Origin: Myxococcales bacterium
Lineage (GTDB): Bacteria > Myxococcota > Myxococcia > Myxococcales > JAJYLH01
Direction of reading: 5' to 3'
Assembly (NCBI GenBank): GCA_021787845.1
Contig: JAJYLH010000002.1
Location: forward strand, 1-64,000
DNA length: 64,000 nucleotides
The notes beneath the pieces were generated by a model that worked only from the letters and a program-made list of their open reading frames with translations, was not told the origin of the DNA and did not search any database. Of the stretch, positions 19,582-59,564 are shown one piece after another (within the stretch, counting starts at the first letter, position 1; every line of letters begins with the position of its first letter). The position numbers and the translations under genes were made by a program.

Positions 19582-19669
19582 CTTCTTCTTCGTCTTGCGA
19601 CGGTGGCCCAAAGGTCGGCCGCTTCTCTTTTCAGGACGGCTCTTCGACGGGCGGGCCGGAGGCGACAAG

Positions 19670-20857
<1,188 letters not shown>

Positions 20858-25896: not shown

Positions 25897-30135
<4,239 letters not shown>

Positions 30136-30148
30136 TCGAACGGCGCCC

Positions 30149-30276
30149 ATCCCTCGACGGCGCTCGGGATGAGCGGGAAAGGGCTCGGGCGCTGATCTTG
30201 GGCGGAACCGCGATGGAAGGGCCTGAAGGCCGGGTGCCCGTCCGCTCACCCTGAGCGAAGTCGAAGGGCGAGCGGG
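30149..30276. repeat. TGAGC-family palindromes in the rpoB-rpoC gap
   Basis: A CCCTCGACGGCGCTCGGGATGAGC-type unit at 30149-30177 and an inverted relative CGCTCACCCTGAGCGAAGTCG and onward at 30241-30276 lie in the 200-bp rpoB-rpoC spacer. They match the elements inside the P-type ATPase gene and could fold into hairpins in the rpoBC mRNA. Confidence 0.75.
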
Positions 30277-30335
30277 GCATGTCGCTAGGGGAAGACAAGG
30301 TGCGTGAGCGGGGCTAGGCCCCAGGGAGTCTCCAG

Positions 30336-34571
<4,236 letters not shown>

Positions 34572-35683: not shown

Positions 35684-36274
35684 GCGCCAGAATCGGCGCC
35701 GGAACCTTCCCGAGACGCCCCGGAGTTCCGGAACGGGATCCTCGCGACAGAGAAACGGTCCCGGAGCTCCGGAACGGGATCCTCGCGACGGAGAAGCCGT
35801 CCCGGAGTTCCGGAACGGGATCCTCGCGAAGGAGAAACGGTTCCGGAGTTCCGGAACGGGATCCTCGCGACGGAGAAGCGGTCCCGGAGTTCCGGAACGG
35901 GATCCTCGCGACGGAGAAGCGGTCCCGGAGTTCCGGAACGGGATCCTCGCGACGGAGAAGCGGCCCCGGAGTTCCGGAACGGGATCCTCGCGACGGAGAA
36001 GCGGTCCCGGAGTTCCGGAACGGGATCCTCGCGACGGAGAAACGGTCTCTGGGCGCAGAATCGGGATCTCCGCCTCGACAAAGTGGCCTCGGACCTCCAA
36101 ATCGGGTTCGTCGCCTCGACAAAGCGGCCTCGGGGCCCCGAATCGGGTTCGTCGCCTCGACAAAGCGGCCTCGGGGCCCCGAATCGGGTTTGTCGCCTCG
36201 ACAAAGCGGCCTCGGGGCCCCGAATCGGGTTTGTCGCCTCGACAGAACGGCCTCGGGCGCCAGAATCGGCGCCG
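35684..36274. repeat. 41-bp tandem repeat array (15 cores)
   Basis: Fifteen cores recur with 41-bp spacing from 35694 to 36267 (thirteen intervals of 41 and the first of 40). The central units contain the perfect palindrome GTTCCGGAAC followed by GGGATCCTCGCGACGGAGAAG. The right-hand units have diverged to GGGGCCCCGAATCGGG with TCGCCTCGACAAAGC. Both edges carry the same GCGCCAGAATCGGCGCC. Because 41 is not a multiple of three, all three frames are used in turn, so this is not a coding repeat. There are no unique spacers, so it is not a CRISPR array. Confidence 0.9.
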
Positions 36275-55785: not shown

Positions 55786-56755
<970 letters not shown>

Positions 56756-56855
56756 CTTCGGGCTCCTTCTCGCCGCGCGCTCGGTTCTCGATCCGCTCCG
56801 GCGAGCCGAGTCGCATGGTAGCTTCGCTCCGGCCTGGATTTTGAGGCGAGGCAGT

Positions 56856-59564
56856 GTGCAGACCCTGACACGGTACGCTTCGGAGCGTCTCCAGCTCCTG
56901 GAACGCCTGCGCCAGCAGGCCGCCGGAGCGAGCCTGGCCGAGCTGTTCCGTCCGGATCCGAACGCGCTGCGCTTCACCCTCGGGACCTCCCTCGCCGAGC
57001 TGCGGGTGCCCTTCCGGATTACGGCAGGGCTTCAGCAGATCGTCCAGACCGCGAGCGCGGAGGCCTTTTTCGCCGCCGCCCAGCGGCACAAGACGGAGAT
57101 CCTTGCGGACGAGTACGACCAGCTCGTGTTGGTGGAAGGCTTCGACCCGACCTTGATTCGGCCGCTCTCGTTCCAGCCGCCGCCGGGCGTGACGAGCGCC
57201 CGGCTCAAGGAATCATTCGCGGAGATCACCGAGAGCCATCACGGCCTGGACGCTGGGGTGGTCGAGAGCGTGCTCGCGGTCGGGCGCGCGGGGCGGCGGC
57301 TCTTGGTCGCGCTGCACTCGGTGCTCACCCGGGCCCGGCGGGAGGCTCGGGCCAACGACGCCGGCGAGCCGACCGCTTTCCTCTCGGCGCTGATGCTGCG
57401 GTCCGTCGCGCACCAGAGCTTCGCCTTGACCGGAGGGGCGCCGGTGTCGGAGCCGATGCGCCGGTTCTTGCGCTCCACGGCTGCGGTGCTGGTGGGCGGC
57501 GTCGTCCGGCTCGCCTTGAAGGAGGGCGGGCTATGGCGCGACGCTGGTCTGTCGCCCGGCGGCCATTCGGCAGCGCCCGCGCCCTCCGACCCGGTGACCC
57601 GGGAGGGCCTGTTGTCGTTGGCGGCGCTGGGCCAGCTCGCGTTCATGGGACCGCGGCCGGTCGTCCAGCGCAGCGGGGTCGCCGCCTGGGGAGTCGCGTT
57701 CGACCGGCTCTCGTTCGTCGAGGAAGCGGCGACCGCGTTGGAGGGCGGGCAGGACCCGGAGCTGCTGGCGCAGGACCTCGCGGGGCGCGCCCTGCGCGAC
57801 AAGGAGACGCAGCGGCAGATGGAGCGCGCTGGCGCGCTCGGGGTGTTGCGGGGACGGCTGAAGGAGCTGGCGCGATTGTGGGAGGGTCAGCGGGCGCCTG
57901 CGCTGCAGGTGCCCGACGGCGGTCTCGAGGGGCTCGTCATCGGGCGGGACGCGCTGGAGCGGCTCCTCGCTTCCGAATGGCGCCGCCAGGCGGCGGCGAA
58001 GAGCGCTCGGGAAGCGGCGCGGGCGGTTTCGAACGACGAGGCGCGGGCGCACCTCGAGCTGTTCGCCCGCGCGCTCAAGGAATATCGGGACGACGAGCCG
58101 GCGGCGTGGCTGGGGGCGAGCGACGCCCGGCTGGCGGCGGCGCGGGCGTCGGTGGCGCTGGCGGCGGACGTGGTGCTGGAGCGGCTTTCGAGCCAGGCGG
58201 CACAGCTCCTGCTCGAAAGGACCGGTACCGAGACCCGCAGCGGCGAGCAGGGTGAGTACGAGACCGGGCGGCTCTACCTCGTGGGAAGCGAGAACCGGCC
58301 GATTCTCAAGTCGCGGGTGCGGGCGCGGCAGGTGGGGCACCTGTTCGCGGACGTGAAGGACTTCACGCGGCGGACGGCGTTCTTGAAAGAGAACGTGATT
58401 GCCGACTTCCTGCAGCGGGAGTTCTACGCGCCGATTCTGGCGGCGGCGTCGGGCGAGATACCAGGCGACAGCGCTCCCAAGGGGCGGGTGGGCATCGAGC
58501 TCAACAATCTGCTGGGGGACGCGGTCTCGTTCTCCGGGGACATCGTGGAGCTGGTGCGGCTGTCGCACGACATCCGCAAGGCGTTGTCCGACTACGCGAA
58601 GCGGCTGGAGGCGGAGGGGTCGCAGCAGGACGTGACGGCGCGGGTGAAGAGCCTCGAGGCGAGGCTGTCGCAGCAGCGCGCCGAGATGGAGAGGCGGGAA
58701 GCGGCCCTCCTCGCGCAGGCGCGCGCCCTGGCGCCGGGCCAGAGGGAGGGGCTTCTCGCGCGGGCGAAGGGTCTACGCGAGGAGCTCTTGCGGCAGACGA
58801 AGCTGTTCGAGGCGGAGCGCAGCCGGGCGGCGGGAGAGAAGCTGGAGGCGGGCAGCTTCGTCTCGTTCGGGGCGGCGCCGGTGATCGCGCGCTTCCAGGA
58901 CCCGGTCTTCGGCGACATCAAGGTGGCGATTGCCGAGAAGATCAACGAGTCGGCGCGGGGGACGGCGCGCCAGGCGGCGGTGCGGGAGAGAGTTCACGCG
59001 GCGTGGACGCGCGCCCGGCGGGCGACGGGACGGCCCCTCGAGCTGCCGTTCTTCGTCCACGTCGAATCGCCGGGAGCGCTGGCGCTGCCGGCGCAGGAGG
59101 CGGCGCGGCTCGACGACCTGTTGGCCCGCGGCGACGAGAGCGGGGCGCAGGCGCTGTGGCTGGAGCTCGCGCGGCAACGGTTGGACGGCAGCGGTCCCGG
59201 TGAGGTCTACAACGCGGGGGCGGCGCTGAGCGAGGAGGCGCTGCGGGCCTATCTGGAGGCGCGGGCGGACGAGTTGGTGGCGCTGGAGCGCACCCTCGGC
59301 CTGAGCGAGATGCATCCGTCTCTCCGGGACCGCTTCTACTTCCCGCGCGGGAAGCTGGAGCTGGTGGGGGCGGTGCGGCCCGGGACCGGCGCGCTGGTCG
59401 AGCTGTTCGTGTTCCAGGGCCGGGCGCTCTTTCGGGGTTTCGAGGCGACGGCCGGGCTCGGCATCTTCGAGATCGTCGACCCGACGAACCCGTTGTTTCG
59501 CGCGCTCGCGGCGCAGCACGTCCCGCAGTGGGTGGAACAGATGCGACAAGCGAAGGGCTCGTAG
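56856..59564 (+). CDS. Large protein with a divergent, coiled-coil-split class III cyclase-like domain
   Basis: The 902-residue soluble protein has an N-terminal helical region (about 1-455) without a family I recognise. A class III nucleotide cyclase-like domain follows: HLFADVKDFTRRT (metal Asp about 499), then NNLLGDAVSFSGD (second metal Asp about 555), then a charged coiled coil (about 585-665), then SFVSFGAAPVIARF and VFGDIKVAIAEKINESA. The last block lines up with the cyclase G-D-x-V-N-x-A-A-R motif, but the conserved Asn and Arg are Val and Glu. Both metal aspartates remain, while transition-state residues are missing. A C-terminal domain (about 720-902) is unassigned. The GTG at 56856 follows GAGGCGAGG. 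TTG at 56841 is the alternative. Confidence 0.65.
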   Translation: MQTLTRYASERLQLLERLRQQAAGASLAELFRPDPNALRFTLGTSLAELRVPFRITAGLQQIVQTASAEAFFAAAQRHKTEILADEYDQLVLVEGFDPTLIRPLSFQPPPGVTSARLKESFAEITESHHGLDAGVVESVLAVGRAGRRLLVALHSVLTRARREARANDAGEPTAFLSALMLRSVAHQSFALTGGAPVSEPMRRFLRSTAAVLVGGVVRLALKEGGLWRDAGLSPGGHSAAPAPSDPVTREGLLSLAALGQLAFMGPRPVVQRSGVAAWGVAFDRLSFVEEAATALEGGQDPELLAQDLAGRALRDKETQRQMERAGALGVLRGRLKELARLWEGQRAPALQVPDGGLEGLVIGRDALERLLASEWRRQAAAKSAREAARAVSNDEARAHLELFARALKEYRDDEPAAWLGASDARLAAARASVALAADVVLERLSSQAAQLLLERTGTETRSGEQGEYETGRLYLVGSENRPILKSRVRARQVGHLFADVKDFTRRTAFLKENVIADFLQREFYAPILAAASGEIPGDSAPKGRVGIELNNLLGDAVSFSGDIVELVRLSHDIRKALSDYAKRLEAEGSQQDVTARVKSLEARLSQQRAEMERREAALLAQARALAPGQREGLLARAKGLREELLRQTKLFEAERSRAAGEKLEAGSFVSFGAAPVIARFQDPVFGDIKVAIAEKINESARGTARQAAVRERVHAAWTRARRATGRPLELPFFVHVESPGALALPAQEAARLDDLLARGDESGAQALWLELARQRLDGSGPGEVYNAGAALSEEALRAYLEARADELVALERTLGLSEMHPSLRDRFYFPRGKLELVGAVRPGTGALVELFVFQGRALFRGFEATAGLGIFEIVDPTNPLFRALAAQHVPQWVEQMRQAKGS

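Follow-up and report, generated by a model that had tools for sequence, protein, structure and literature searches.

A new subfamily of predicted class III nucleotide cyclases in Myxococcota with an Asn/Val base-selecting pair

The protein encoded at 56856-59564 of the window (the whole stretch of DNA analysed, 64,000 nucleotides from a Myxococcales bacterium) is a new subfamily of class III cyclases. It is probably an active, soluble nucleotidyl cyclase of class III fold that lies beyond the reach of present sequence models, and we regard the presence of the fold together with a complete catalytic set as close to certain. Its true oddity is a fixed Asn/Val base-selecting pair, which went unmentioned in an earlier note made from the sequence alone. 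The gene, its domains and the residues discussed below are listed here in window coordinates.

56856..59564, plus strand: whole gene, GTG start, 902 aa; helical N-terminal domain and split class III cyclase domain; full-length homologues
56856..58229, plus strand: N-terminal all-helical domain (residues 1-458), presumed regulatory; AlphaFold2
58323..58616, plus strand: cyclase domain part 1 (490-587), beta1 with Asp499, helices, beta2-beta3 hairpin with Asp555
58350..58352, plus strand: Asp499, metal ligand (FADVKDFT), invariant 45/45
58506..58508, plus strand: Asn551, base-selecting Lys/Glu position, Asn in 44/45
58518..58520, plus strand: Asp555, metal ligand (LLGDAV, in LLGDAVSF), invariant 45/45
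58617..58835, plus strand: helical-hairpin (coiled-coil) insert (588-660), 73 aa; AlphaFold2; 5-169 aa across the family
58836..58970, plus strand: cyclase domain part 2 (661-705), three strands and the helix bearing Asn697/Arg701; model, structural alignment, hhalign
58923..58925, plus strand: Val690, second base-selecting position (Asp/Thr/Cys in known enzymes), invariant 45/45
58944..58958, plus strand: N-E-S-A-R (697-701), transition-state Asn and Arg, equivalent of NxAAR in VNxAAR, invariant 45/45
58971..59201, plus strand: second insert (about 706-782), mostly helical; AlphaFold2, alignment
59202..59486, plus strand: cyclase domain part 3 (783-877), C-terminal strands of the fold; model, structural alignments

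The 902-residue open reading frame was judged to be real on 45 aligned sequences, namely the window protein and 44 relatives with 21-47% identity to it. A pattern scan of contigs with the single protein as query returned nothing, whereas the alignment as query worked, and an alignment-based scan of about 85,000 species yielded 47 loci. The record titles of these loci, which include Archangium and Anaeromyxobacter, all name Myxococcota or “Deltaproteobacteria”, except for one titled Proteobacteria alone. Relatives occur in 31 of 60 sampled related genomes, own genome counted, and the family is found in 58 of 195 Myxococcota genomes, a few of these being weak or partial matches. The culturable species Archangium violaceum carries the gene (L055). 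The gene is present once in its own genome, and a single copy is the usual state across the family. The plasmid and phage records searched held no match.

Whether the query was the protein alone or the alignment, none of the Pfam or NCBIfam models reached its cut-off, and no solved structure in the PDB was confidently matched by sequence. PF00211 (Guanylate_cyc) matched neither the window protein nor any of the 20 members scanned, at E values up to 1. A match to DUF4349 within the coiled coil (E 0.0059) misses the cut-off and was set aside, as it looks like coiled-coil composition. Our literature search found nothing on this cyclase family in myxobacteria. The earlier suggestion of a new family therefore holds in that no Pfam or NCBIfam model or PDB sequence recognises the protein, whereas the catalytic part has a class III fold.

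An AlphaFold2 model of the full protein, with the 45-sequence alignment (the window protein and loci from the species scan) as input, had a mean pLDDT of 90.4 and a pTM of 0.79. When the model was compared with the PDB by VIA-align, the best 50 matches listed were all class III cyclases (Z 14.7-16.8) with rmsd values of 2.1-3.2 over 155-184 residues, one match excepted, and the aligned range of the model ran from about residue 459 or 490 to 877. The top Foldseek matches were likewise class III cyclases; none had E < 0.001, which is not surprising when a single domain, itself interrupted, is matched within a model of 902 residues. A class III cyclase-like palm fold had been proposed before and staked on structure prediction, and AlphaFold2, VIA-align and Foldseek bear it out, the window protein having the class III fold over 490-877 at the Z scores given.

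The cyclase domain thus comprises residues ~490-877 and is broken by two inserts. It had earlier been taken as 485-705; it reaches past 705, since VIA-align covers the C-terminal strands to 877. The flanking parts had been called unassigned domains, which needs correction for the C-terminal 100 residues, as these complete the cyclase fold. In part 3, the sequence FRGFE, with K or R at 860, resembles the LKG element of known cyclases, an equivalence drawn by eye.

A coiled coil inserted after the second metal aspartate, previously put at about 80 residues, was confirmed at 73 residues by AlphaFold2 as two antiparallel-looking helices (590-624 and 627-658). Its length ranges from almost absent to 169 residues, and it is therefore not part of catalysis. 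The hairpin is a variable decoration and not the defining feature of the family, and it may supply a contact surface. The N-terminal 458 residues were modelled alone with a pLDDT of 93.9 and a pTM of 0.92 as all helix. No Pfam family matched this domain, and its comparison with PDB structures gave no E < 0.001 and a best Z of 6.3 at an rmsd of 10; it may still have a common fold that Foldseek missed. Among 189 Myxococcota genomes, every strong match to it preceded the cyclase domain of this family, and we infer that it is a regulatory input.

Both metal aspartates, which the earlier note had picked out in FADVKDFT and LLGDAVSF, are confirmed as D499 and D555; they lie in F-x-D-[IV]-x-x-F-T and in a G-D hairpin and are invariant in all 45 sequences. 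The same note had read GDIKVAIAE as the GDxVNxAAR block and concluded that the transition-state Asn and Arg are missing. The string is indeed present, as residues 686-694, and forms a strand in the model; the motif is the next stretch, AEKINESAR, in which N-x-x-x-R sits on helix 694-701 after this core strand. This register comes from hhalign, by which the family profile was compared with 21 ordinary cyclases of the same order collected with PF00211. The comparison gave a probability of 88.5% and an E value of 2.7e-6, and INEsARG fell on VNvASR unprompted, so that V-A-I-A-E-K-I-N-E-S-A-R (690-701) lines up with T-A-I-G-D-T-V-N-V-A-S-R. The 21 controls, made up of eight stretches from elsewhere in the same family, twelve profiles with shuffled columns and one reversed profile, reached at most 0.7%. 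Given this register and the canonically spaced Asn697 and Arg701, invariant in 45/45, the supposed loss was a register error.

In all, 29 positions are invariant in the 400-residue domain region of the 45 sequences, and the chance of D499, D555, N697 and R701 all falling among them is about 2e-5. The active site is under strong constraint while insert length varies freely. Further invariant residues near the active-site motifs, K501, T703 and R705, are absent from the ordinary cyclases compared, which could speak for a class III-like fold doing other nucleoside triphosphate chemistry, such as pyrophosphate release without ring closure, or formation of a dinucleotide. We consider this highly improbable, as the Asn/Arg pair for 3'-5' cyclisation is invariant and the structures listed are class III cyclases.

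The first choice of the earlier note was a pseudo-cyclase receptor, in which the domain binds a nucleotide allosterically or acts as a scaffold and makes no product. Such a role is unlikely for the window protein because Asn697, Arg701, D499 and D555 are all present and invariant in 45/45, and the argument in its favour, loss of Asn and Arg, was the register error described above. It draws some support from base-selecting residues unlike those of known enzymes, and from three members in other genomes that lost at least one of D499, D555 and N697 with the frame open. The replacements are Glu499 and His697 in L034, Ser697 in L150 and, where the alignment is poor, Gly555 and Ala697 in L147. These exceptions are candidate true pseudo-cyclases of the same architecture, to which the window protein does not belong, and some part of the family may have a role that needs no catalysis.

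An active cyclase remains the preferred explanation. In the mechanism we propose, two chains would pair head to tail, with Asp499 and Asp555 of one chain holding two metal ions and the triphosphate, and Asn697 and Arg701 of the partner chain orienting the ribose and stabilising the transition state of 3'-5' ring closure, which would yield a cyclic nucleoside monophosphate and pyrophosphate. The helical N-terminal domain would shift the dimer in response to a ligand or partner; in Rv1264, the N-terminal domain acts in this way. Counting against activity are a base-selecting pair of no matched type and the double interruption of the domain; in addition, the three members above keep an open frame, so some function may not need catalysis.

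The base-selecting pair lies four residues before the second metal Asp (Asn551) and seven before Asn697 (Val690). At the former position, Lys marks adenylyl and Glu guanylyl cyclases (PMC4215837, PMC4886424), and the cytidylate cyclase EaPycC has Arg there, as deduced from residue numbers (PMC11224242). Ordinary myxobacterial cyclases had Lys with Thr/Asp in 21/21, whereas the family had Lys in 0/45 and Asp/Thr in 0/45; the window protein thus carries neither the ATP-type pair (Lys with Asp/Thr) nor the GTP-type pair (Glu with Cys/Ser/Thr etc.). A pair of known type is not required for the class III fold, but it is required to name an adenylyl or guanylyl cyclase, and with Asn/Val in place of Lys and Thr/Asp the base is not predictable. 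If the base is read by Asn/Val and not by Lys/Asp or Glu/Cys, the product could be cAMP, formed by way of a different contact, or else cGMP or a cyclic pyrimidine nucleotide.

The first of these products would make the protein an ordinary adenylyl cyclase that recognises ATP without the Lys/Asp pair, a sub-case of the active-cyclase explanation and a real possibility, though short of an even one. The ordinary cyclases sampled in the order look ATP-type by their residues, and class III enzymes tolerate changes: Ala replaces Asn in Ma1120 and the second base site varies widely among guanylyl cyclases (PMC4215837), and Rv1900c is cited as a cyclase with His replacing Asn (PMC4886424). However, the family lacks Lys and Asp/Thr throughout, and the constancy of Asn/Val among very divergent sequences suggests that another contact has been selected for. 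The earlier idea of an enzyme for another nucleotide is open as a candidate that would rest on the Asn/Val pair, and not on the Asn/Arg argument by which it was reached. A product other than cAMP and cGMP is rather unlikely, and we consider equally unlikely the idea of a myxobacterial subfamily making, e.g., cCMP or cUMP, a chromosomally inherited signal outside phage defence that would be switched by a new helical sensor domain.

The neighbours do not settle the function, as no neighbourhood is common to all members. In the window's own family and those related to it, a small lipoprotein-like gene and glnB (PII) are divergently oriented to the cyclase gene. The lipoprotein-like gene (window 56234-56899, minus strand) had no Pfam match, and its relatives lie in six other loci, mostly adjoining glnB. 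A functional link to glnB was dropped, because Anaeromyxobacter and a deep clade (L073-L083 and L086) do not retain this neighbour. In that clade the gene lies directly 3' of a gene for a secreted CAP-domain (PF00188) protein in an operon-like arrangement, with a HAD phosphatase ahead of the CAP-domain gene in the two loci scanned. In three Myxococcaceae-type loci (L051-L053) it adjoins a class II cAMP phosphodiesterase, a CRP-like protein and a CHASE2 adenylyl cyclase. We take the link to this cAMP cluster as incidental: the phosphodiesterase is near-universal in the order (113 of 127 genomes), whether or not the cyclase gene is there, and it also lies within 2 kb of a cyclase in genomes that lack this gene (G003:C34, G016:C40). 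No constant neighbour reading or degrading a cyclic nucleotide was found in the loci examined, which also counts against an active cyclase. The own genome has 15 matches to PF00027, the cyclic-nucleotide-binding domain, and a class II phosphodiesterase homologue; possible readers for a cyclic nucleotide therefore exist.

Elsewhere in the window, an EF-Tu-like frame lies at 19595-20857, and a dip in GC content at 24-36 kb coincides with the reading frames at 25897-34571 that we take to be rpoB- and rpoC-like. Downstream of rpoC, two arrays of 41-bp tandem repeats (35719-36269; 8.0 copies with 94% matches and 5.5 copies with 88%) overlap a minus-strand nitrilase-like frame at its upstream end.

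Because this entire branch of cyclases escapes the sequence libraries, cyclic-nucleotide signalling is undercounted in about one third of the sampled Myxococcota genomes. A fixed Asn/Val in an otherwise complete active site makes base choice in class III enzymes directly testable, and the N-terminal part adds a confidently modelled helical domain with no solved relative found in the PDB comparison.

Among known systems, the closest are class III cyclases (PF00211) such as CyaC of Spirulina platensis, CyaB of Pseudomonas aeruginosa and Rv1264, with which the protein shares the whole-domain fold (Z 14.7-16.8), the order and spacing of Asp, Asp and Asn...Arg, and an N-terminal part before the catalytic domain. 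It differs from these PF00211 cyclases by the absence of a PF00211 match in the 20 members, the Asn/Val pair, the two inserts and an N-terminal domain outside Pfam. The DUF2652 cyclase-like proteins (PMC4886424) are likewise sequence-divergent bacterial relatives of class III with changed specificity residues, and are likewise predicted only; they have Lys-Glu or Glu-Lys/Arg pairs with Asn absent or replaced by His, whereas Asn/Arg is intact and the pair is Asn/Val in the family described here. Myxobacteria are unmentioned in the main text of that paper.

The Pycsar cyclase PycC, which acts in phage defence together with a cyclic-pyrimidine effector (PMC11224242), is likewise class III-like and likewise altered at the residue four positions ahead of the second metal Asp, which is Arg142 in EaPycC (numbering of that paper) and Asn551 in the window protein. 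Of the pyrimidine-selecting residues F100, R142 and Q144 of EaPycC, which correspond to F497, N551 and L553 here, F alone agrees. No Pycsar-type effector was noted among the neighbours looked at, only some of which were Pfam-scanned. Unlike Pycsar, the gene sits on the chromosome and occurs in several families within a single phylum.
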